From positions 1 to 42,158 of the IMG/VR virus record IMGVR_UViG_3300043539_002351: a DNA stretch of 42,158 bases, one strand, 5' to 3'. Below, one piece after another: positions 4,566-39,938 of the stretch. Source of the DNA: a virus. The notes beneath the pieces are model-generated. The model was not told where the DNA came from, ran no database searches, and saw nothing but the letters and a program-made list of their open reading frames with translations. Positions within the stretch are counted from its first letter, which is position 1. Every line of letters starts with the position of its first letter. A program made the translations under genes and the position numbers.

Positions 4566-4572
4566 ATAAATA
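4566..4572 (-). promoter_or_regulatory. TATTTAT late-promoter-like motif
   Basis: TATTTAT on the minus strand, 5 nt before the ATG at 4560. It follows directly after the terminator of the small minus-strand gene, which separates the two transcription units. Confidence 0.6.
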
Positions 4573-8106: not shown

Positions 8107-8331
8107 ATGGTAAACGAAATGGTAAATCACCCCAACCATTATGGTGGGGAAAACAATCCATACGAAGTAATAAAAGTATGTGAAGCTTGGGGACTTGATA
8201 AAGACGCCTACATCTTCAACGTAGTTAAGTATGTTGCAAGAGCGGGGAAGAAAGACCAAGCAAAAGAATTAGAAGACCTTAAGAAGGCGGCTTTCTATTT
8301 GGACCGTAAGATTAAAAATTTAGAGTTATGA
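8107..8331 (+). CDS. DUF3310 family protein
   Basis: 74 residues. VNHPNHYGGENNPYEVIKVCEAWGL and YIFNVVKYVARAGKKD, then a helix ending YLDRKI, match the phage DUF3310 pattern (NHPxHY, then NxxKYxxRxxxK). Many databases label it a putative nucleotide kinase, but it has no P-loop and the biochemical function is unknown. It overlaps the APS-kinase-like gene by 4 bp (ATGA), which fits a role close to nucleotide metabolism. Confidence 0.85.
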   Translation: MVNEMVNHPNHYGGENNPYEVIKVCEAWGLDKDAYIFNVVKYVARAGKKDQAKELEDLKKAAFYLDRKIKNLEL

Positions 8332-13287: not shown

Positions 13288-13294
13288 ATAAATA
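13288..13294 (-). promoter_or_regulatory. TATTTAT late-promoter-like motif
   Basis: TATTTATTAAGTATG on the minus strand: the motif ends 5 nt before the start of the DUF192 gene. Confidence 0.6.
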
Positions 13295-13441: not shown

Positions 13442-14035
13442 ATGGATTATAAAATTTTTGTTATTTCATTAAAAAGAAGACAGGATAGGAGGGAAAAAAT
13501 TTCGGAATTATTCGAAAAAAACAATCTAAAGTTTTCTTTTTATGACGCAATTGATGGACGTGATTTAATTGTTACGGATGAGATTGAAGAATTATTTTTA
13601 AATAATGAGTTTGAAGAGTGGGGTATAATAAAAGAATGTATCTATGGTAATACCTTAACTCATCTAAAGCTATTGAAAGAATGTTCTGAGCAGAATTTAC
13701 CGTATTTTATTTTTGAGGATGATGTTAAAATAAAGAAAGATATTAATTTTACGTTTGAGAGTATTGTTGAAAAAAAATTAGATGTTTTTTGGTTAATAGA
13801 TTTAGAACCTTCGTCGTTAGCATACGTTGTTTGGCCTGAGGGTGCTAAAAAAATACATGATTGGGTAATGAATGTTGGAAAGGCGGATAAAGGAATGGAT
13901 TGGAAATTATTAGAAATAAAAAACACTAATATCCTAAATTCTGATAAGATATGGGACGAATACTTTTATCAAGTACCTGGAGAAGATTCAGATATTGCCC
14001 CCAACGGTTATAATTTAATTCAAAATAAAATTTGA
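13442..14035 (+). CDS. glycosyltransferase family 25-like protein
   Basis: 197 residues. IFVISLKRRQDRREKI near the start, DAIDGRDL at 35-42, TLTHLKLLKEC at 71-81 and PYFIFEDDV at 87-95 are the family 25 (LPS biosynthesis) glycosyltransferase signatures; the EDD at 92-94 is the metal/nucleotide-sugar site. It is shorter than the usual 230-250 residues, with a reduced acceptor part. Base composition is more AT-rich than the neighbours. The stop lies immediately before the first promoter of the non-coding RNA block. It may modify virion or host-surface glycans. Confidence 0.82.
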   Translation: MDYKIFVISLKRRQDRREKISELFEKNNLKFSFYDAIDGRDLIVTDEIEELFLNNEFEEWGIIKECIYGNTLTHLKLLKECSEQNLPYFIFEDDVKIKKDINFTFESIVEKKLDVFWLIDLEPSSLAYVVWPEGAKKIHDWVMNVGKADKGMDWKLLEIKNTNILNSDKIWDEYFYQVPGEDSDIAPNGYNLIQNKI

Positions 14036-14061
14036 TTTTTTAAAAATATTTTTTATCTTTG
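14032..14061 (+). promoter_or_regulatory. sigma-A-type promoter P1
   Basis: TTGATT (14032-14037), 16 nt, TATCTTTG (14054-14061), the Bacteroidetes -33/-7 pattern (TTG, TAnnTTTG). It overlaps the stop of the glycosyltransferase gene and points into the hairpin RNA at 14066. Confidence 0.75.
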
Positions 14062-14065
14062 TAAA

Positions 14066-14125
14066 ACATTTGGGGAATAAGGATATATTTATATAACTCG
14101 ACCGAAAGGTCAACACCCCCAAAAC
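14066..14125 (+). ncRNA. small hairpin RNA A
   Basis: Starts about 5 nt after P1. TTTGGGG (14069-14075) can pair with CCCCAAA (14117-14123), enclosing a GACC-GAAA-GGTC hairpin (14100-14111). There is no open frame of note and no T-run after it, so the end is a guess and the RNA may run on toward the tRNA or be processed. Structure is read from complementarity only. Confidence 0.55.
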
Positions 14126-14142
14126 TCACAATAAAAAAAGAT

Positions 14143-14173
14143 TTGACAGAATGAGAATTCTTTCCTATCTTTG
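14143..14173 (+). promoter_or_regulatory. sigma-A-type promoter P2
   Basis: TTGACA (14143-14148), 17 nt, TATCTTTG (14166-14173). A near-ideal promoter in front of hairpin RNA B and the tRNA. Confidence 0.85.
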
Positions 14174-14177
14174 TGAA

Positions 14178-14232
14178 ACAAATCCCATGAGTGTGGAGTT
14201 TGAGAAAACTTCTTAATCTTGTGGGATTTTTT
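14178..14232 (+). ncRNA. small hairpin RNA B or attenuator before the tRNA
   Basis: AAATCCCA (14180-14187) pairs with TGGGATTT (14222-14229), enclosing GGAGTTT-GAGA-AAACTTC (14195-14212), a 7-bp stem with a GNRA loop. A run of six T at 14227-14232 follows the outer stem, so the unit could be a stand-alone small RNA with its own terminator, or an attenuator controlling read-through into the tRNA 28 nt downstream. Confidence 0.55.
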
Positions 14233-14260
14233 ATCAGACGTTCTTTAAAATAAAATATAC

Positions 14261-14332
14261 CGTGGGATAGAGCAGTGGTAGCTCGGAAGGCTCATAACCT
14301 TTAGGTCGGTGGTTCGAATCCATCTCCCGCAA
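14261..14332 (+). tRNA. initiator-like tRNA-fMet (CAU)
   Basis: 72-nt cloverleaf: acceptor CGTGGGA/TCCCGCA, D arm GAGC-AGTGGTA-GCTC, anticodon arm GAAGG-CTCATAA-CCTTT with anticodon CAT at 14293-14295, variable loop AGGTC, T arm GGTGG-TTCGAAT-CCATC. Three features mark an initiator rather than an elongator: a C1:A72 mismatch at the acceptor end, an A11:U24 pair in the D stem, and G30:C40 plus G31:C39 under the anticodon loop. The third G:C pair of the classical initiator (29:41) is A:U here. CCA is not encoded (CAA follows), so the host would add it. Transcribed from P2. Confidence 0.92.
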
Positions 14333-14374
14333 CAACGTGAATTAAATTTCACAAAAAAAAGTTTTACAAACTAT

Positions 14375-14405
14375 TTGATTAATTGAAAAGTTCTTCATAT
14401 CTTTG
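14375..14405 (+). promoter_or_regulatory. sigma-A-type promoter P3
   Basis: TTGATT (14375-14380), 17 nt, TATCTTTG (14398-14405), followed by TAAAACA as at P1. Drives structured RNA C. Confidence 0.8.
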
Positions 14406-14410
14406 TAAAA

Positions 14411-14590
14411 CAATTGAGAAAGGTTGACCATAGGTTCGTAAAATCGAGGTTCCCTACTCAATAAAAACTCTCAGGTAAAACTGATTGTTTCTTTGACAAA
14501 CAGACGAATTAGCCCGTCCTATTTAGAGTAGGGGGTCAACAAGATAGTTAGGTGATGCTATCAAGGAAGAATGAATTCGTTAAAATCATC
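14411..14590 (+). ncRNA. structured RNA C (about 180 nt)
   Basis: A long interrupted helix is visible: GTTGACC (14423-14429) with GGTCAAC (14534-14540), and CCCTACTC (14452-14459) with GAGTAGGG (14526-14533). The two right-hand strands are contiguous and the left-hand ones flank a 22-nt bulge. Inside are CTG...TTT/AAACAG (14481-14503) and GACG/CGTC (14503-14518). A separate hairpin GATAG/CTATC follows (14543-14562). No open frame is present and no known RNA family is recognised. The 3' end is not marked by a T-run. Confidence 0.65.
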
Positions 14591-14615
14591 AGTCAAAAAA
14601 AAGTTTCATAAAAAT

Positions 14616-14646
14616 TTGATAGTCTCAAAACTTTCATCTACCTTTG
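14616..14646 (+). promoter_or_regulatory. sigma-A-type promoter P4
   Basis: TTGATA (14616-14621), 17 nt, TACCTTTG (14639-14646), followed by TGAAACA as at P2. Drives the 1 kb RNA. Confidence 0.8.
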
Positions 14647-14651
14647 TGAAA

Positions 14652-15650
14652 CAAATGAAGGAGAGGGTTGAAATCCTACTTCGGTAAGGTCAACTACTCC
14701 TTCATTAATTTTGAATACGTTCTTTGAATATAAAGTATTTTCTTGAAATATGTTGATGATGAGACCCTCGGGTTGATTCTGAGATAGAGATAAAGAAATT
14801 GGGCGGTCTATAGTCCATAAAATAAACCATGAAAGTGGTATAAAGTGATTCACTCTCGATTAGGGTGGGTTGCGGTTTCCGAAAGGGAACTCGAGTAGAC
14901 AGGCAGGACATCATTGAGTCTTAAGTACCGAGGGTAACACTATAGGGAAAGTGATTTGATGACCGAGCGATGTGGGTCGTTTGGTTGAGGTGGGAACACC
15001 AACAAGAGTAACCTGTAGAACTGTTGTGAGAAGTATGGTCATCCAACTATACAATTGCGGAGTTCAATATTAAAGTTGACTTAAAACCGAAAGGTAAGAG
15101 TTCGTACAGGTGGTGCTGTTGTTCTCCTTACTTCTCATCTACCAAGGTAGAAGTTATGTAGTTGACTTGAAATATGGAGGTCGGGAGACTTCAAAGTGTA
15201 GTTCAGTATCGTCTCGTTCAAAAGATGGGATGGCTGGTTGACGGACCGCTACATTTATCATCCACTATCAACCCCTATTGTTAAAATATGGATTCTAACA
15301 AATCAATTAAGAAACAAAGGAAAAGTGTTCGTCAGTCGTGATAGACAGGTCACTACTTAGTCATGAGTTGTTCATGGCCGTAACGGGTCCCAAGCCCAAT
15401 ACGATTGTTTTAAAAGTTCTCTAGTCCCGCAAGGATTAATTGGGGTGGCAACCTCGAAGAGTGATGATTAGAAACAGAGTATATTACGACTCAAGGATTG
15501 GTTAATCTAATTGACCGTGACTGAGAGGTACTTCTCAAAAGGAAGTGGAAATCGGAGGAAATAAATAATCTCCTGTAAAGTCTCTCATTGAAAGGTGTAT
15601 TCTCAACCTGAATGCCACTAACCCTGACGTTTCTACGTCGGGGTTTTTTA
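14652..15650 (+). ncRNA. giant structured non-coding RNA D (about 1 kb), GOLLD/ROOL-like in character
   Basis: No plausible reading frame on either strand, visibly higher GC than the genes around it, its own promoter and a terminator. Strong local stems include AATGAAGGAG/CTCCTTCATT (14654-14663/14697-14706) enclosing a C-UUCG-G hairpin, CTCGA/TCGAG (14855-14859/14891-14895) enclosing GTTTCC-GAAA-GGGAAC, GGTG-GGAA-CACC (14989-15000), GAGAAGTA/TACTTCTC (15028-15035/15129-15136), ACC-GAAA-GGT (15086-15095), TCTAC-CAAG-GTAGA (15138-15151), GAGGTC-GGGA-GACTTC (15177-15192), TTGTTA/TAACAA (15278/15296), GGTTAA/TTGACC (15500/15511) and TGAGA/TCTCA (15522/15533). A possible long-range pair is TTGAGTC (14914-14920) with GACTCAA (15488-15494). 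Size, ornate structure, phage context and a neighbouring tRNA recall GOLLD and ROOL RNAs, which are known to be large, phage-borne and tRNA-linked. I cannot assign it to either by eye. Confidence 0.82.
15621..15650 (+). terminator. strong intrinsic terminator of the 1 kb RNA
   Basis: ACCCTGACGT (15621-15630) pairs with ACGTCGGGGT (15635-15644) around TTCT, followed by a T-run. Ten base pairs with one G:T. Confidence 0.92.
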
Positions 15651-20787: not shown

Positions 20788-20794
20788 ATAAATA
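20788..20794 (-). promoter_or_regulatory. TATTTAT late-promoter-like motif
   Basis: TATTTATTAATATG on the minus strand; the motif ends 4 nt before ATG 20783 and heads a three-gene operon. Confidence 0.65.
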
Positions 20795-20846
20795 CATTTA
20801 TTTTTATATTTCGGTCATTTATCATTTAAACATAAATAATAATACT

Positions 20847-24526: not shown

Positions 24527-24534
24527 TATCTTTG
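24527..24534 (+). promoter_or_regulatory. sigma-A-type -7 element very close to the start codon
   Basis: TATCTTTG at 24527-24534, only 4 nt before ATG 24539, so transcription would start at or near the initiation codon. Confidence 0.65.
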
Positions 24535-24538
24535 CGAT

Positions 24539-24877
24539 ATGGAAAGATTGTCGCAACATATGATGGAAGAAAAAATGATTGACGACGTGTTAAGACATTT
24601 TGATTTTAGAAAATGTCGTAATGCGATGGAATCTCTTAATTGGGAATGGTTTAGTAGAGGTATTCCAACAGTTGAAATGTTAAAAGAATCGGCAATAGAA
24701 AGACTTCGTTCAGCAATGAAGGGAGTAAAAGATAAAGAGAATAGACTTTCTGTGAATGAGAGTTACTTTTGTTCAAGTGGAGGACTTAAAGGGACTGCAT
24801 GGAAGAACCGTTACGGTCATGTGGCGGGGATAAAGTTAGAGTTCGTTCTTACAGAATGGGACTCCGATGGAGATTAA
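24539..24877 (+). CDS. conserved phage protein of unknown function
   Basis: 112 residues. MESLNWEWFSRGIPTVEMLKESAIERL and SVNESYFCSSGGLKGTAWK are recognisable in many uncharacterised phage proteins (pattern xxLNWxWxxxxxPTxxxL, then GGLxxxA). Probably the first gene of the glycosylation operon, 3 bp before the GT2 gene. Leader of only a few bases. Confidence 0.65.
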   Translation: MERLSQHMMEEKMIDDVLRHFDFRKCRNAMESLNWEWFSRGIPTVEMLKESAIERLRSAMKGVKDKENRLSVNESYFCSSGGLKGTAWKNRYGHVAGIKLEFVLTEWDSDGD

Positions 24878-24880
24878 TAT

Positions 24881-26128
24881 ATGAAAACAAAAAAACCAAG
24901 TGCGATTGTCTACGGACTTGAAGTCAAAGGGGAATTAATATTAACTTCAGATGTTTATTTTGAAGAAAATTTACATGATGAAGTTGTTATCTATAGTTTA
25001 CCTTATAAAGATTCTGTTATTGAAGACTACACCAAATACACTCCTGACTTAATAATATCGATTGATGAGGTAATTAATATCCCTCACACTCAATTATCTC
25101 GTAAACATAAACACCTTGACGAAATGCCAGGGTACAATGTATTGGCAAACATCGTTGTTTGTCAAACAGTATTTAAGTCGTGCGAAGTCATTAGACCAAG
25201 ATTTTCAATATTCACACCAACGTATCAAACAGGTGAAAGGATTAAAAGAACTTATGAAGGGTTAAAGAACCAAGTATTAACTAATTGGGAATGGGTTGTT
25301 GTTGACGATTCTCCTGATGACGATACTTGGAACATACTTCAAGAAATCGCTTCTACAGATTATCGAGTAAAGTTAAATCGAATTTACCCACTTACAGGTG
25401 GTAATATTGGTTTAGCAAAACACAGAGCGGCGATGTTATGTGAGGGTGATTGGTTAGTGGAGTTAGACCACGACGACTATCTTACAAGTGAATGTCTCAG
25501 TACTTCAAACGATGCTATTCTAACATACCCTGACGCCAAATTTCTATATACAAATTGCTCCGAGATGTACGATGACGGAGAGATGAAGCACTATGACCAT
25601 AATTGGGATGGTGATTGGTATGCGAGACATGATAATTTCTTTGATTTTGGATATGCTGGACATACATGGGTTACCGTAGATGATAAAGAAGTGTTGGCTC
25701 ATCACTACCCTGATGTTAATCCATTAACTATCAGATACAACATATCAATGCCGAATCACGCAAGGATGTGGGAGAGAAAACTATACTATGAAATCGGTGG
25801 ACATAACAAAACTATGCCTGTTGCGGATGACTTAGAAATTATTATTAGGTCTTTTTTGAAAACACGGATGATTCATGTGAAAAAAGTGTTATACTTCCAA
25901 TATAACAACAGAAATAGTACTGTTGATAATAATGCAAACGATATAAACCGAAGAGCCCGATTAATTCGTGATTACTACGATACGGCAATTCATAATCGAA
26001 TACTTGAACTTGGTTTCCATGATTGGAATTGGAGTGACGAAGATGGTCACTCACAGAAATTCCAAAACAGATGTCCAATTAGAAAGTTTTACGAAGATGA
26101 ACAAGTAATGAATTACATTTATGAATAA
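24881..26128 (+). CDS. GT2 family glycosyltransferase with N-terminal extension
   Basis: 415 residues. An N-terminal part of about 105 residues is not recognised. RFSIFTPTYQTGERIKRTYEGL, WEWVVVDDSPDDDTW and GDWLVELDHDDYL (DHDD as the DxD motif) are the GT2 signatures; a later ADDLEIIIR resembles the catalytic-base (ED) region. The C-terminal part has NNRNSTVDNN. The enzyme should transfer a sugar from a nucleotide donor. It overlaps the next glycosyltransferase by 8 bp. Confidence 0.85.
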   Translation: MKTKKPSAIVYGLEVKGELILTSDVYFEENLHDEVVIYSLPYKDSVIEDYTKYTPDLIISIDEVINIPHTQLSRKHKHLDEMPGYNVLANIVVCQTVFKSCEVIRPRFSIFTPTYQTGERIKRTYEGLKNQVLTNWEWVVVDDSPDDDTWNILQEIASTDYRVKLNRIYPLTGGNIGLAKHRAAMLCEGDWLVELDHDDYLTSECLSTSNDAILTYPDAKFLYTNCSEMYDDGEMKHYDHNWDGDWYARHDNFFDFGYAGHTWVTVDDKEVLAHHYPDVNPLTIRYNISMPNHARMWERKLYYEIGGHNKTMPVADDLEIIIRSFLKTRMIHVKKVLYFQYNNRNSTVDNNANDINRRARLIRDYYDTAIHNRILELGFHDWNWSDEDGHSQKFQNRCPIRKFYEDEQVMNYIYE

Positions 26129-27272
26129 GAAAACAAAGATTTGTTTAAACGCAATGGTTGGTAACGAAGCTCCAACCATATTAAGAATGTTGGAGTCAGT
26201 TGCTCCACACATCGACTATTACGTCATTCAATGTAATGGAAAAGAAGATAATACCCAAGAAATTATCGATAACTTCTTTAAGGAGAAAAACATCCCTGGA
26301 TACACTTACCAAACAGATTGGAATTTCCCTGGGTTTAATAGAGACCATACACTTCAGGAATGTTTGAAGGCTGAACATGGATGTGATTGGATTCTTAGAA
26401 TGGATGCGGATGAAAGACTACAGGTTGATGAAAACTTTGATTGGTCTATTCTTGACGATACATCGGTTGACAGTTATAACATTACTGCCGAGGCGGGAGA
26501 TACAAGATATTTCAGAACTTGGTTTTGGAATACAAAATTACCATGGTTCTTCCAACACGATAAGAGACACGAAACAATTCACTTACCTGAGATTGGTGAA
26601 AACTTCCAAAGACTTGATATGCCATACGGGTTCAGACACTTAGTTGGACAGGATGGTGAAACTTGGAATGTACCGAGAAAATTCTTGAAAGATGCTCTTG
26701 AGTTAGAGATTGATAAAGTTGTTGGTAATACAGTATTGGAAGACCATTACCACTTATGGTACTTGGCTAAAAGTTATGCAGACTCTTACGGTAGTCCTCA
26801 CGAATTACCTTTTGGTAAAAAACATTCTGACGAATATGCTAGAAGGTCTATTTGGTATTTTGAAAGATTCTTTGAAGTTTCTCATAAATGGTATGGTGAA
26901 GGACAACCAACACGTGAAGACGAGATGGGGTATTACGCATTAATTATGATGGGACATGCCTATTATTTCATAGGTGACATCGCAAAATCTCACGAGTGTT
27001 TTAAAGATGCAGAACTGTTCTGTACAAGTAGAAACGAGCATTTAATGTACTTAGCATCTTATTTGGAAAAACAAGGAAGATATGAAGAAATATTACCACT
27101 CATTAGTGAGATGGTTAAAAAACCAAATCCATTCCCAAATAGAACATTCTTAATTGAGAATAGATGTTATTTAGACTCAAGTAATTTTTTAAATGAATAC
27201 CAAGAAATGATTGAGAGAAAACTTAACGAACCTACTATGGATTTAACGAGTGTAAATTTTGAGTTTGAATGA
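26121..27272 (+). CDS. GT2 family glycosyltransferase with C-terminal helical repeat region
   Basis: 383 residues. KICLNAMVGNEAPTILRMLESV and WILRMDADERL (DADE as the DxD) mark the SunS/TagD-like GT2 subgroup that starts with an (M)VxNE motif. Residues about 260-340 (YALIMMGHAYYFIGDIAKSHECF, then a second YLASYLEKQGRYEEIL) look like two or three TPR units, as in protein- or peptide-glycosylating members. Overlaps glf by 4 bp (ATGA). Confidence 0.82.
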   Translation: MNKKTKICLNAMVGNEAPTILRMLESVAPHIDYYVIQCNGKEDNTQEIIDNFFKEKNIPGYTYQTDWNFPGFNRDHTLQECLKAEHGCDWILRMDADERLQVDENFDWSILDDTSVDSYNITAEAGDTRYFRTWFWNTKLPWFFQHDKRHETIHLPEIGENFQRLDMPYGFRHLVGQDGETWNVPRKFLKDALELEIDKVVGNTVLEDHYHLWYLAKSYADSYGSPHELPFGKKHSDEYARRSIWYFERFFEVSHKWYGEGQPTREDEMGYYALIMMGHAYYFIGDIAKSHECFKDAELFCTSRNEHLMYLASYLEKQGRYEEILPLISEMVKKPNPFPNRTFLIENRCYLDSSNFLNEYQEMIERKLNEPTMDLTSVNFEFE

Positions 27273-28375
27273 TACTAATGAAGAAACCTAAGTATGATTA
27301 TTTAATAGTCGGAGCTGGGGTCTTCGGGTCTGTCTGTGCTCATGAACTTACTAAGAAAGGTAATAAGTGCTTGGTAATAGACAAACGAGATGTTATTGGT
27401 GGGAATTGTTATACTGAGAACGTAAATGGAATTCATGTCCACAAATACGGAGCTCACATATTCCACACCAATGACAAACATCTTTGGGATTATGTTAATC
27501 AGTTTGCTGAGTTTAGACAATACACACACAACGTGATTGCAAACTACAAAGGACAGATGTTTACTCTCCCATTTAATATGTGGACATTCAATCAACTATG
27601 GGGATGTACCACCGAAGATGAGGCCAAACATATTTTGGAGAGCCAAACATATTCGGGCGAAGTCACAAACCTTGAGGAACAAGCGAAGTCCATGGTTGGC
27701 GATGATGTTTATAATAAACTGATTAAAGGTTATACCGAGAAACAGTGGGGTAAACTATGTTCAGAGTTACCACCATCAATCATCAAAAGGTTACCTGTTC
27801 GATTTACGTGGGATAGTAACTACTTTAACGACAAATACACAGGAATGCCAATAGGTGGTTATACTCAAATATTCGAAAGAATGTTAGAAGGTTCCGAGGT
27901 TAGGTTAGGGGTCGATTATTTCAAAGAACGAGAGTATTTGGACTCATTGGCAGACAAAATTATATACACAGGGCCTATCGATAAATTCTTCGATTACAGG
28001 TTCGGTAAGTTAGACTATAGAAGTCTTACTTGGGATACAAAGATACTTGATTCTAATAACTTCCAAGGAGTTCCTGTGGTAAATTATACAGACGAAGATG
28101 TTCCTTATACAAGAATACTTGAACACAAATGGTTTGACCCTCACAATCAAAAAGGAACTGTAATTAGTTATGAATACCCTGCGGATTATAATGGTGAGAA
28201 TGAACCGTATTATCCTATTAGAGACGACAAAAACACCAAGACCTACGAGATGTACCACGAACTAACAAAGTCTCTTAAATCATACTATTTTGGGGGTAGA
28301 TTAGCAACCTATGTTTACTACGATATGCATCAGGTGATTGCTCAGGCACTAAAAATGTTGAAGGAAATAAATTAG
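27269..28375 (+). CDS. glf: UDP-galactopyranose mutase
   Basis: 368 residues, the normal length for the family. The FAD-binding GAGVFGSV (15-22), an E/D-bearing VIDKRDVIGGNCYTE, HKYGAHIFHTND, TLPFNMWTFNQLW, YTEKQWG and GGRLATYVYYDMHQ are hallmark sequences. The enzyme interconverts UDP-galactopyranose and UDP-galactofuranose using reduced FAD in the cytoplasm. With two GT2 genes directly upstream and overlapping, it should feed galactofuranose into a glycan. The start at 27269 (overlapping the upstream stop) or 27278 are both possible. Confidence 0.95.
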   Translation: MILMKKPKYDYLIVGAGVFGSVCAHELTKKGNKCLVIDKRDVIGGNCYTENVNGIHVHKYGAHIFHTNDKHLWDYVNQFAEFRQYTHNVIANYKGQMFTLPFNMWTFNQLWGCTTEDEAKHILESQTYSGEVTNLEEQAKSMVGDDVYNKLIKGYTEKQWGKLCSELPPSIIKRLPVRFTWDSNYFNDKYTGMPIGGYTQIFERMLEGSEVRLGVDYFKEREYLDSLADKIIYTGPIDKFFDYRFGKLDYRSLTWDTKILDSNNFQGVPVVNYTDEDVPYTRILEHKWFDPHNQKGTVISYEYPADYNGENEPYYPIRDDKNTKTYEMYHELTKSLKSYYFGGRLATYVYYDMHQVIAQALKMLKEIN

Positions 28376-28392
28376 AAACATTTTTACGCTGA

Positions 28393-28399
28393 TATTTAT
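28393..28399 (+). promoter_or_regulatory. TATTTAT late-promoter-like motif
   Basis: TATTTATTCGTAATG: the motif ends 5 nt before ATG 28405, separating this gene from glf. Confidence 0.65.
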
Positions 28400-29712: not shown

Positions 29713-29719
29713 ATAAATA
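29713..29719 (-). promoter_or_regulatory. TATTTAT late-promoter-like motif
   Basis: TATTTATTAGTATG on the minus strand; the motif ends 4 nt before ATG 29708. Confidence 0.65.
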
Positions 29720-30015: not shown

Positions 30016-30027
30016 ATAAATATTTAT
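30016..30027. promoter_or_regulatory. overlapping divergent TATTTAT motifs
   Basis: ATAAATATTTAT: the minus-strand motif (30022-30016) faces the 30001 gene, the plus-strand one (30021-30027) ends 5 nt before ATG 30033. A compact bidirectional promoter-like site. Confidence 0.6.
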
Positions 30028-31436: not shown

Positions 31437-31443
31437 ATAAATA
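31437..31443 (-). promoter_or_regulatory. TATTTAT late-promoter-like motif
   Basis: TATTTATATCATATG on the minus strand; the motif ends 5 nt before ATG 31431. Confidence 0.65.
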
Positions 31444-31476: not shown

Positions 31477-31484
31477 TATATTTG
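31477..31484 (+). promoter_or_regulatory. sigma-A-type -7 element TATATTTG
   Basis: TATATTTG, 4 nt before ATG 31489, so the transcript would have almost no leader. Confidence 0.55.
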
Positions 31485-31488
31485 CCGA

Positions 31489-31899
31489 ATGGGACATCAA
31501 TCATCAAATCAATCAAGGTCAAAGAACGGGAACGACTTCGAGAAAGTATTCACCGAGAGAACAGGTATTCAGAAAATGAAGAAGAAAGATAAGCCTCGTT
31601 TCACTAACTGTCATGGACAAGAACAACTAATTGATTTTGACTTTGCCACAGAAATTGGCGGGGTTAAAGTGTTCATCGATGTTACCACAACATATAGAAG
31701 TGATAGACAGAAACAAAAGGCTTACAATGCGGTAATGATGAAGACCAAGTTAGGTGTGGACTGTAAATTCTATATGGTTATTAAGTCTCTAATCGAGAAC
31801 GGTAAACCAAAGACTGTAAACTTAGTGGAAGGTATGGACGATGTAATAGAGATTGATACTTTCGTTAATATGTTAGGCGTCGAACTCCACAACGGATAA
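31489..31899 (+). CDS. possible PD-(D/E)xK-type nuclease-like protein
   Basis: 136 residues. GNDFEKVFTERTGI is an N-terminal helix typical of such folds; LIDFDFATEIGGVKVFIDVTTTYRSDRQKQKAYNAVMM could hold the catalytic core with Asp in place of the proximal acid and DVT in place of ExK. YRSDRQKQKA supplies basic residues. The assignment is weak: the classical ExK is missing. Start at 31489 behind a host-type promoter, apart from the late-type neighbours. Convergent overlap of 27 bp with the next gene. Confidence 0.45.
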   Translation: MGHQSSNQSRSKNGNDFEKVFTERTGIQKMKKKDKPRFTNCHGQEQLIDFDFATEIGGVKVFIDVTTTYRSDRQKQKAYNAVMMKTKLGVDCKFYMVIKSLIENGKPKTVNLVEGMDDVIEIDTFVNMLGVELHNG

Positions 31900-32818: not shown

Positions 32819-32825
32819 ATAAATA
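32819..32825 (-). promoter_or_regulatory. TATTTAT late-promoter-like motif
   Basis: TATTTATAATCATG on the minus strand; the motif ends 4 nt before ATG 32814. Confidence 0.65.
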
Positions 32826-34325: not shown

Positions 34326-34332
34326 ATAAATA
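34326..34332 (-). promoter_or_regulatory. TATTTAT late-promoter-like motif
   Basis: AGTATTTATCAGTATG on the minus strand; the motif ends 4 nt before ATG 34321. Nearly the same string precedes ATG 35536. Confidence 0.65.
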
Positions 34333-35540: not shown

Positions 35541-35547
35541 ATAAATA
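35541..35547 (-). promoter_or_regulatory. TATTTAT late-promoter-like motif
   Basis: CTATTTATCAGTATG on the minus strand; the motif ends 4 nt before ATG 35536. Confidence 0.65.
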
Positions 35548-35608: not shown

Positions 35609-36574
35609 ATGAAAGATTTAATTTTAATAACTGCGCATTGCCCAACAACTGAACAAGTTGAGAGATTGGAAAAGTGTGTCGATTCAGTTTTAAAAACAGG
35701 ACATCACATCTTGTTAATATCTCATACTCATATCCCAATTCACATTCAAAAAAAATGTCAGTATTACTTTTATGATTATCTAAATGAAACGTCAGATGAT
35801 TGTGATTTATTAGGTTATAATAATTATGCCACAAGTGATTTCATTATTCAATCAAGGTTTTTCATGAAAAAGTTTTATGGATTCGCAATTTATAGAATGT
35901 TTTCAATGGCAAGCCAAATAGCAATAAACTTTGGATATGATAAACTACATCATATAGAGTATGATTGTGAACTATTGGACAAAACCATAATCGATGAACA
36001 TAGTTCACTTTTAGAAACATATAATTCAGTATTATATACTAATGACGGAACACCTGAAGGATTTCTTTTTGGTTCATTAAAATCTTTTAAAGTTAATTAT
36101 TTACCTGAAATGTTTAAAACATATAACAGAGATTATATAGAGGGTGAAATAAAAAAAATTGAACCTAATCATTTAGAGTATTTAACAAAAAAACTGTTTA
36201 TTGATTCAGGGAATGTCTTATTTAAAAGCGAAAAAGATTTATCTAAACAAAGATTCAGTAAGGGACCAAAGTTCTATGATATAGGTGTACACTATACTTT
36301 GTATTATAATTCAATTGACAATACAATAAACATTTTTTATCTCTCAAAAAAATCTTATAATGAGAATATTGTTGTGATAGTGAATGATAAAGTAGTTCGT
36401 TTTAAAGCGTTACCAAACCAATGGCGTATACAACCTTTAGGGTTATTAGATGATGTGAATTATGTTAGAATAGATAATTCCGATAAATGTTTATACGAGA
36501 AATCCTTTGATGATGAATTCAAAAGCGCATTCATAAATAAATCGTACATCACTTACTATGAAAAAAATAATTAA
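35609..36574 (+). CDS. glycosyltransferase-like protein
   Basis: 321 residues. KDLILITAHCPTTEQVERLEKCVDSVLKTGHHILLISHT is a GT2-like nucleotide-binding start; YDKLHHIEYDCELLDK (EYDCE as the DxD) follows. Family members occur in surface-polysaccharide loci of Bacteroidetes. The C-terminal third (NIVVIVNDKVVRFKALPNQW) may be a beta domain. It overlaps the BKACE gene by 17 bp, so it heads the operon. More AT-rich than other genes here, a hint of separate origin. Confidence 0.65.
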   Translation: MKDLILITAHCPTTEQVERLEKCVDSVLKTGHHILLISHTHIPIHIQKKCQYYFYDYLNETSDDCDLLGYNNYATSDFIIQSRFFMKKFYGFAIYRMFSMASQIAINFGYDKLHHIEYDCELLDKTIIDEHSSLLETYNSVLYTNDGTPEGFLFGSLKSFKVNYLPEMFKTYNRDYIEGEIKKIEPNHLEYLTKKLFIDSGNVLFKSEKDLSKQRFSKGPKFYDIGVHYTLYYNSIDNTINIFYLSKKSYNENIVVIVNDKVVRFKALPNQWRIQPLGLLDDVNYVRIDNSDKCLYEKSFDDEFKSAFINKSYITYYEKNN

Positions 36575-37406
36575 TTTCACACCTACGGGGACACAAACCA
36601 CAAGGGACAATTCGTTTGCTCCATTATTACCGAATGAAATAATAGAGGAGGTTCATCATGCAAATGAATTGGGGATTTCAATTGTGCATTTACATGCAAG
36701 AGATGAAGAAACATTAATGAATACTTACAAGAAAGAAGTATATCAAAAGATTATAGAGGGGATAAAGAAACATTGTCCTGACTTACTGATTTGTGTTTCG
36801 TTAACGGGTAGAAACTTTCCTGAGATAGAAAAAAGAACCGAGGTGTTACAGTTATATCCTGATATGGGTTCACTAACCATGTCATCATTAAACTTTCCAT
36901 CGGGGGCATCCATCAATCAACCTGATACTATATTAAGATTAATAGAAGAGATGGATAAGTACGGGGTACAACCTGAGATAGAATGTTTTGATACAGGGAT
37001 GTTAAACTATACAAATTACCTTATTTCAAAGAACGTATTAAGTTGCAAATGGGGTAAATTAATACCACCGCATCACATCAACATTATACTTGGAAACATG
37101 TATAATGGACAGTGTGATTTTGGAACTCTGGCAAGTATTAAATCTAATCTACCTGAACATTCTATGGTATGTTTAGGAGGGATAGGTTCTCAACAACTAA
37201 AAAGCACAATGTATGGACTGTTAGAGTTTGATGGTGTTAGAGTCGGGCTCGAGGATAATCTCTATTACAAAGATAAGGAAAAGACAACGAACATAAAATT
37301 ATTAAAACGAGTACATAGAATAATAGATGAATTAGATATGACTCACTATACACCAAACGAATTAAGAGAAAAAGGATATGGGAACAAAGTTACTAATTAT
37401 AGGTAA
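36558..37406 (+). CDS. BKACE (DUF849) family enzyme
   Basis: 282 residues. NFTPTGTQTTRD, HLHARDE (44-50), SLTGRNFPEIEKR, GSLTMSSLNFPSGASINQP, EIECFDTGM, GGIGSQQL and GVRVGLEDN reproduce the beta-keto acid cleavage enzyme pattern: a TIM barrel with zinc held by the HLHAR histidines and a conserved Glu. Known members condense or cleave beta-keto acids with acetyl-CoA. Such an enzyme is unexpected between glycosyltransferase and acyltransferase genes; it may act on a sugar-linked beta-keto or amino acid intermediate. Overlaps both neighbours (17 and 29 bp). Confidence 0.85.
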   Translation: MKKIINFTPTGTQTTRDNSFAPLLPNEIIEEVHHANELGISIVHLHARDEETLMNTYKKEVYQKIIEGIKKHCPDLLICVSLTGRNFPEIEKRTEVLQLYPDMGSLTMSSLNFPSGASINQPDTILRLIEEMDKYGVQPEIECFDTGMLNYTNYLISKNVLSCKWGKLIPPHHINIILGNMYNGQCDFGTLASIKSNLPEHSMVCLGGIGSQQLKSTMYGLLEFDGVRVGLEDNLYYKDKEKTTNIKLLKRVHRIIDELDMTHYTPNELREKGYGNKVTNYR

Positions 37407-39801: not shown

Positions 39802-39808
39802 ATAAATA
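39802..39808 (-). promoter_or_regulatory. TATTTAT late-promoter-like motif
   Basis: CTATTTATACTATATG on the minus strand; the motif ends 5 nt before ATG 39796. Confidence 0.65.
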
Positions 39809-39931: not shown

Positions 39932-39938
39932 TATTTAT
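39932..39938 (+). promoter_or_regulatory. TATTTAT late-promoter-like motif
   Basis: ATATTTATCATTAATG: the motif ends 5 nt before ATG 39944. Confidence 0.65.

Follow-up and report, generated by a model that had tools for sequence, protein, structure and literature searches.

To our knowledge, GOLLD ranks among the largest natural RNAs whose structure has been solved, and it has no known function. Members of the family other than the one described here form 14-mer cages and rise in expression at lysis (PMC12286853), and pull-down evidence for ribosome binding is cited by Kretsch et al. (PMC12286853). The same authors remarked that the env-38 GOLLD lies downstream of a Met-tRNA, and suggested phage tRNAs as possible GOLLD cargo (Kretsch et al. 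2025, PMC12286853). Phage ICP1, for its part, has an abundant GOLLD- or ROOL-sized RNA and no tRNA (PMC7567579). Initiator-type tRNAs are likewise found in phages: those of the crAss-like phage cr60_1, Cellulophaga phage phi4:1 and the Prevotella Lak phages share the core initiator determinants of the tRNA considered below, but they sit beside the terminase or within tRNA arrays, have no GOLLD in the stretch examined, and are annotated as tRNA-Met only or not at all. The 548-kb Prevotella phage Lak-B1 has two of them in its tRNA region (L311:2265-2338 and 8165-8238), and there, too, the stretch examined contains no GOLLD. Initiator-type tRNAs of phages and the occurrence of GOLLD near tRNAs have each been known, separately; beyond the env-38 remark, their repeated pairing was not found described in the literature searched, which did not extend to the 2009 discovery paper.

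The DNA analysed here, the window, is the whole stretch of 42,158 nt (42 kb; 35% G+C) from position 1 to 42,158 of the IMG/VR virus record IMGVR_UViG_3300043539_002351. It bears phage genes, e.g. one for a collagen-repeat tail fibre with an S74 chaperone domain, and, at 24881-28375 and 36558-37403, sugar and metabolism genes encoding glycosyltransferases, UDP-galactopyranose mutase and a beta-keto acid cleavage enzyme. An SD-like sequence stands upstream of only 2 of its 38 genes, and this scarcity, together with the type of promoter, would place the host of the virus in a phylum of the Bacteroidota type. Ribosomes of Bacteroidia do not recognise the Shine-Dalgarno sequence (PMC9976891). The locus resembles known GOLLD loci (RF02032) such as env-38 (PMC12286853) in matching the whole 3' domain, in having a Met(CAU) tRNA upstream and in its phage setting. 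It departs from earlier descriptions of GOLLD, in which the RNA is ‘often near tRNA islands’, in that the single tRNA of the window is specifically an initiator, a relation tested below over many lineages, and in that every unit comes with a Bacteroidota promoter and a boxA-like leader to itself.

What kind of tRNA is it? The only one in the window is, by ARAGORN, a tRNA-Met(CAU) at 14261-14333 on the plus strand; the stretch ending one base earlier scores 61 bits with Rfam RF00005 against a cut-off of 29, and its minimum-energy fold, left unconstrained, is a cloverleaf. Direct reading gives a C1:A72 mismatch, the D-stem pairs G10:C25, A11:U24, G12:C23 and C13:G22, an anticodon stem GAAGG/CCUUU (G27:U43, A28:U42, A29:U41, G30:C40, G31:C39), the anticodon loop CUCAUAA, A73 and no encoded CCA. 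The features by which bacterial initiators are recognised are present: no Watson-Crick pair at 1:72, the formylation determinant (C:A is also the main type in GOLLD-linked relatives), A11:U24, and the P-site pairs G:C at 30:40 and 31:39. The third consecutive pair of the stricter E. coli type, G29:C41, is replaced by A29:U41. Identity is 79.5% to the initiator of Prevotella nigrescens and 77.0% to that of E. coli, as against 59.2% to the elongator Met and 61.6% to the Ile2 of E. coli, the last two comparison sequences being 100% matches to an annotated tRNA-Met and tRNA-Ile, respectively. An elongator tRNA-Met is rejected on the unpaired 1:72 position and the low identity, and a lysidine-type tRNA-Ile2 (CAU) is rejected as the closest relative on identity as well. 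The tRNA is an initiator by identity, and there is very little room for doubt. The first-pass annotation, made from the sequence, had named it an initiator on the strength of C1:A72, A11:U24, the CAU anticodon and two of three G:C pairs, the third being A:U, and both the name and each of these features are borne out.

The same annotation had recorded A:U in place of the third G:C pair, and the comparison with a host fMet tRNA that it had proposed bears on this point. The Bacteroidota initiator used for this purpose is a single sequence, from a Prevotella replicon in a plasmid collection; it has C1:A72, the stem CCAGG/CCUGG with A29:U41, and no encoded CCA. It agrees with the window tRNA in these respects and in A11:U24, G30:C40, G31:C39, CUCAUAA and A73, and differs in that the window tRNA is phage-encoded, 20% divergent and one base shorter in the D-loop. 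Because this one host sequence has A29:U41, the pair can be considered host-like for Bacteroidota rather than a flaw, and G29:C41 is not defining for the initiators of this phylum.

Phage copies tell a similar story. Viral contigs were scanned for the initiator core without constraining the anticodon stem, and the result was pooled with that of an earlier scan to yield at least 78 distinct copies. Among the matches listed, pair 29:41, free in both scans, is A:U in 46 of the 78 and G:C in 20, so that A29:U41 is the commoner form; 30:40 is G:C in 76 and 31:39 in 69, both being upper estimates, as the earlier scan had fixed G30, G31, C39 and C40. In GOLLD-linked initiators 11:24 is A:U in 25 of 25 distinct copies, and compensatory changes occur at pairs such as 5:68, 7:66, 28:42 and 51:63. 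Recurrence in dozens of phages with compensatory stem changes excludes a chance origin of the element, and the pattern is that of an initiator tRNA under maintenance.

Variants of the linked tRNA also occur. One clade (L005, L013, L022, L024, L028, L031, L036, L045 and others) carries an additional base where the D stem begins, TGGTAGC or TAGTAGC replacing TAGAGC, with A11:U24 retained; the few automatic counts of ‘G:C at 1:72’ are artefacts of the register shift that the extra base before the D stem causes, and direct reading gives C:A. In L041 (6523-6630) the initiator adjoining GOLLD has about 36 nt inserted, intron-like, between CTCA and TAA of its anticodon loop, and a second odd CAU tRNA lies beside it. 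In others (L008:9454-9525, L014, L023, L025, L049, L010, L015, L038 and L047) the same promoter-boxA slot upstream of GOLLD holds decayed or altered tRNA-like elements, with the anticodon loops ATTATAA or GGTCTCATAAGCC.

The surroundings of the tRNA, a stable-RNA island with GOLLD that the first-pass annotation had overlooked, are the more informative context (Table 1). Five promoters of the Bacteroidota type (TTTG-N17..21-TAnnTTTG) lie between 14031 and 15682, i.e. in about 1.7 kb. The units that they serve begin with a small hairpin RNA, followed by the tRNA, an unnamed RNA and the GOLLD RNA, and end with a downstream gene. The five promoters are among nine plus-strand matches, where 0.92 would be expected on that strand over the whole 42 kb (Poisson ~6e-10). 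The GOLLD covariance model is matched above its gathering score across the entire 3' domain. In architecture the units are akin to rRNA-type units with boxA antitermination, since a strong A-tract/TTTG promoter, a leader hairpin and a boxA-like GTTCTTTRA precede each stable RNA; they differ in that the island elements, which we take to be boxA-like from their likeness to rrn boxA and their position, are known from these two properties, Nus-factor binding being putative. The two small RNAs that flank the tRNA (14070-14130 and 14413-14600), each with a promoter of its own, recur in L009, L013, L024 and L042; the second has a conserved CCTATT...AGTAGGGGGTC hairpin and matches no Rfam family at gathering threshold. 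Both are candidates for new RNA families.

Table 1. Positions of the RNA elements, promoters and elements lying closely before ATG codons in the window
Feature	Position	Strand	Basis
Bacteroidota-type promoter of first small RNA	14031..14061	+	pattern match
Small structured RNA or leader, GGGG..CCCC enclosing a GACC/GGTC hairpin	14070..14122	+	fold z -2.06; recurs upstream of tRNA in relatives
Bacteroidota-type promoter of tRNA unit, TTTG-N-TATCTTTG	14142..14173	+	pattern match; precedes tRNA in relatives too
Leader hairpin between promoter and tRNA	14180..14229	+	fold -21.1 kcal/mol, z -4.25; equivalents in L024, L042, L047
boxA-like antitermination element GTTCTTTAA, 12 nt before tRNA	14240..14248	+	similarity; same position in relatives
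Phage initiator-type tRNA (CAU), CCA not encoded	14261..14332	+	ARAGORN, Rfam RF00005, determinants in sequence, Prevotella identity
Bacteroidota-type promoter of unnamed RNA, tRNA-GOLLD interval	14374..14405	+	pattern match
Unnamed, probably structured RNA, tRNA-GOLLD interval; contains GTCCTATTTAGAGTAGGGGGTC	14413..14600	+	GTCCTATTTAGAGTAGGGGGTC recurs in relatives
Bacteroidota-type promoter of GOLLD unit	14615..14646	+	pattern match
Leader hairpin of GOLLD unit	14654..14706	+	fold -22.3 kcal/mol, z -4.45
boxA-like element GTTCTTTGA before GOLLD	14719..14727	+	similarity
GOLLD 5' domain, start approximate	14740..15193	+	alignment of 420 bases upstream of 3' domain, 112 GOLLD loci
GOLLD RNA 3' domain	15194..15609	+	Rfam RF02032, 327.1 bits vs 150 gathering score, model 1-416 complete
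GOLLD intrinsic terminator	15620..15650	+	11-bp hairpin then U tract, -17.7 kcal/mol, z -6.24
TATTTAT, 5 nt before ATG (330-aa frame), putative leaderless promoter	28393..28399	+	spacing
TATTTAT, 5 nt before ATG	30021..30027	+	spacing
TATTTAT, 5 nt before ATG	39932..39938	+	spacing
TATTTAT, 5 nt before ATG	39802..39808	-	spacing
TATTTAT, 4 nt before ATG	35541..35547	-	spacing
TATTTAT, 4 nt before ATG	34326..34332	-	spacing
TATTTAT, 4 nt before ATG	32819..32825	-	spacing
TATTTAT, 5 nt before ATG	31437..31443	-	spacing
TATTTAT, 4 nt before ATG	29713..29719	-	spacing
TATTTAT, 6 nt before ATG	20832..20838	-	spacing
TATTTAT, 4 nt before ATG	20788..20794	-	spacing
TATTTAT, 5 nt before ATG	13288..13294	-	spacing
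TATTTAT, 5 nt before ATG	4566..4572	-	spacing
Host-type -7 element TATCTTTG, 4 nt before ATG at 24539	24527..24534	+	spacing
Host-type -7 element TATATTTG, 4 nt before ATG at 31489	31477..31484	+	spacing

Is the proximity of an initiator tRNA to GOLLD peculiar to this phage? A first pattern built on GOLLD only retrieved 47 viral contigs, and the Rfam model confirmed every one of them. In 35, GOLLD is preceded on its own strand by a tRNA-CAU, which is in most cases the sole tRNA of the locus and almost always an initiator by sequence. A second, broader GOLLD-only pattern retrieved at least 120 contigs; among the matches listed from both sets, an initiator stands within 1.5 kb of GOLLD at 49 of the 104 loci that have at least 1.4 kb of upstream DNA. 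When the GOLLDs listed were clustered at 90% identity, the nearest same-strand upstream tRNA proved to be an initiator in 20 of 23 lineages, whereas the 92 other tRNAs found up to 1.5 kb from GOLLD include no initiator (Fisher p ~1.5e-19), and with the coarsest clustering, at 75%, the corresponding figures among the matches listed are 6 of 8 lineages and 0 of 28 other tRNAs. The initiator-GOLLD order recurs across lineages whose GOLLDs share less than 75-80% identity. Searching in the opposite direction, GOLLD scored above cut-off in 17 of 77 viral records picked by the initiator pattern, 12 of which have the initiator within 1.5 kb. That the initiator tRNA is linked to GOLLD can be regarded as practically certain.

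The layout of individual phages agrees with these counts. Where a tRNA array exists, it is mostly located downstream of GOLLD and the initiator remains upstream; in a 317-kb phage the initiator (242.9 kb) adjoins GOLLD (241.7-242.1 kb), and the other 20 tRNAs are found at 131-160 kb, more than 80 kb away. The initiator is the only tRNA of two phages of 71 and 104 kb, the pair is also present in the 634-kb phage LR745206, and in L059, L083, L227, L230 and L294 GOLLD is followed by the initiator after 1-28 nt. The association has exceptions: no tRNA occurs within 1.5 kb in 24 of the 58 informative GOLLD lineages (90% identity, among the matches listed), and an initiator was found elsewhere in only 2 of about 39 GOLLD records that have none locally; two more records of that search proved to possess a local one just beyond the DNA retrieved. 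Among 50,697 phage records, no cultured phage with both a window-type GOLLD and an initiator was found, and the only uncultured huge phages with a window-type GOLLD are LR745206, with its initiator, and LR756502, with a different tRNA. In 84,980 bacterial and archaeal genomes the GOLLD pattern had only two matches (L186 and L187), which look like chance, since they do not align to GOLLD elsewhere. An alignment of 112 loci revealed no sequence difference between GOLLDs with and without a tRNA, the same positions being conserved in both, and a start-codon mimic or anticodon complement as a tRNA-binding site was rejected, because the AUG or UUAUG of some GOLLDs is not conserved. Taken as a whole, the recurrent pairing in many divergent phages points to a phage module acting on the start of translation.

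How do the mRNAs of these phages begin? Of the 29 copies of the heptamer TATTTAT in the window, 13 stop 4-6 nt short of an ATG that begins an open frame (~2e-13 relative to the background rate). Over 1165 sites in GOLLD loci the distance between it and the ATG has a sharp peak at 4-5 nt (92 and 63 sites, other positions having about 10 each); at 171 sites in these loci it ends 4-6 nt before a start codon, and T-rich blocks are seen about 7 and 14 nt further upstream. TAnnTTTG is the known -7 element of Bacteroidota. This host-type element has a spacing peak 4 nt before ATG as well and, with two promoter types at an equal short distance, the spacing suggests a transcription start on the AUG itself or directly beside it. 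TATTTAT is therefore probably a phage promoter yielding leaderless mRNAs, as far as spacing can place both promoter and start. A review reports that a larger supply of fMet-tRNA strongly enhances translation of leaderless mRNAs, the gain for canonical translation being only mild (PMC9031893). This effect and the 13 TATTTAT-ATG sites speak for the first-pass proposal that the tRNA favours leader-poor mRNAs. The proposal is weakened by a comparison within GOLLD phages, in which TATTTAT-ATG was counted at 87 of 700 sites without a nearby initiator and at 94 of 529 with one, and large records of the former kind usually lack any initiator. Since the element is about as common without the tRNA, leaderless genes do not require it.

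What, then, might the tRNA do? It is one of the units of a stable-RNA island, the last of them being GOLLD RNA, and its transcription would proceed from a strong host-type promoter of its own through a boxA-type leader; during infection host enzymes would charge it with Met and formylate it, and the initiator pool would grow. With host ribosomes that make no Shine-Dalgarno pairing and phage mRNAs poor in leaders, initiation would lean unusually on the initiator tRNA, and the phage's own mRNAs would benefit most from an extra supply. GOLLD would be made along with the tRNA and, as the pair is retained across divergent phages, may act on the same step of initiation. Expression, charging and formylation of the tRNA in infection are what we infer from its sequence, as is its joint action with GOLLD from their pairing. 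That the tRNA supplements the initiator pool during infection seems probable, a preference for leaderless mRNAs is somewhat less likely than not, and the best overall explanation, in which a functional Bacteroidota-type initiator encoded by the phage adds to the pool and favours the leader-poor mRNAs of the phage, stands evenly balanced between right and wrong. A bolder version would have GOLLD and the initiator form a single takeover device, in which the cages bind ribosomes or initiator tRNA and shift translation from the leadered mRNAs of the host to the leaderless mRNAs of the phage; it is improbable, and if true would give GOLLD a first role, its function having been unknown since discovery. 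Several GOLLD-bearing phages (G088, G139, G140, G146, G151, G155, G173, G027, G030 and LR745206) also encode bS21 (PF01165). Work cited in PMC9976891 describes bS21 as a factor of the late stage and proposes that it redirects translation.

The enlarged pool has to be weighed against other uses of the same gene. The phage copy could be a replacement that resists a host toxin or nuclease directed at the host initiator, by VapC-type cleavage or AtaT-type acetylation, so that initiation survives. VapC of enteric bacteria does cleave initiator tRNA (Winther and Gerdes 2011, as cited in PMC10264068), and evasion of tRNA-targeting defences has been published as a general hypothesis for phage tRNAs (PMC10264068). 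Nevertheless, a general avoidance of tRNA-fMet is reported for phages that infect a VapC host (PMC10264068), no escape mutation is visible in the standard CUCAUAA loop, and A29:U41, which might have been such a phage-specific mark, was discarded because the Prevotella initiator has the same pair; this explanation, which also leaves the linkage to GOLLD without an account, is unlikely. Linkage is what commends the idea that the initiator is a physical partner of the GOLLD cage, as cargo, scaffold or processing signal, and not mainly a translation factor, along with the cargo suggestion and env-38 remark of Kretsch et al. 2025 (PMC12286853). Where the initiator directly follows GOLLD, at 1-28 nt, an RNase P cut at the tRNA would fix the 3' end of GOLLD. 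In the window, however, the two have separate promoters, leaders and boxA sites, which makes a common transcript unnecessary; moreover, GOLLD does not differ in sequence between loci that have the tRNA and loci that lack it, no conserved anticodon complement was found in it, and a mere processing signal would not need conserved initiator determinants. A physical partnership of this sort has only a slim chance of being the explanation.

It is also conceivable that an island of strong promoters is simply a convenient site, from which a hitch-hiking initiator lifts initiation overall without any special tie to leaderless mRNAs or GOLLD. Leaderless-type elements do occur with or without the tRNA, and cr60_1, phi4:1 and the Lak phages have initiators with no GOLLD nearby; yet the initiator keeps apart from large tRNA arrays and adjoins GOLLD, and this order recurs in lineages whose GOLLDs have diverged as described above, so that mere convenience appears to be an unlikely account. 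Finally, decayed tRNA-like elements fill the same slot in some relatives, as would suit an attachment-site remnant or a functionless pseudogene. Such an origin is very hard to credit, given an intact cloverleaf with all determinants and a promoter of its own, a window in which no further partial copy of its 3' half was found, and no genomic-prophage copy of a window-type GOLLD among the 84,980 genomes apart from the two chance-like pattern matches.

The reading of the tRNA as a functional initiator that enlarges the pool carries implications beyond this one locus. An initiator cannot compensate for codons, so phage tRNAs are not necessarily about codon usage. For GOLLD, a recurrent partner that is specifically an initiator, and not any tRNA, offers a concrete functional lead. 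And Bacteroidota ribosomes blind to Shine-Dalgarno sequences, leader-poor phage mRNAs and phage-borne parts of the translation apparatus such as bS21 may come together in one testable picture of translation takeover.
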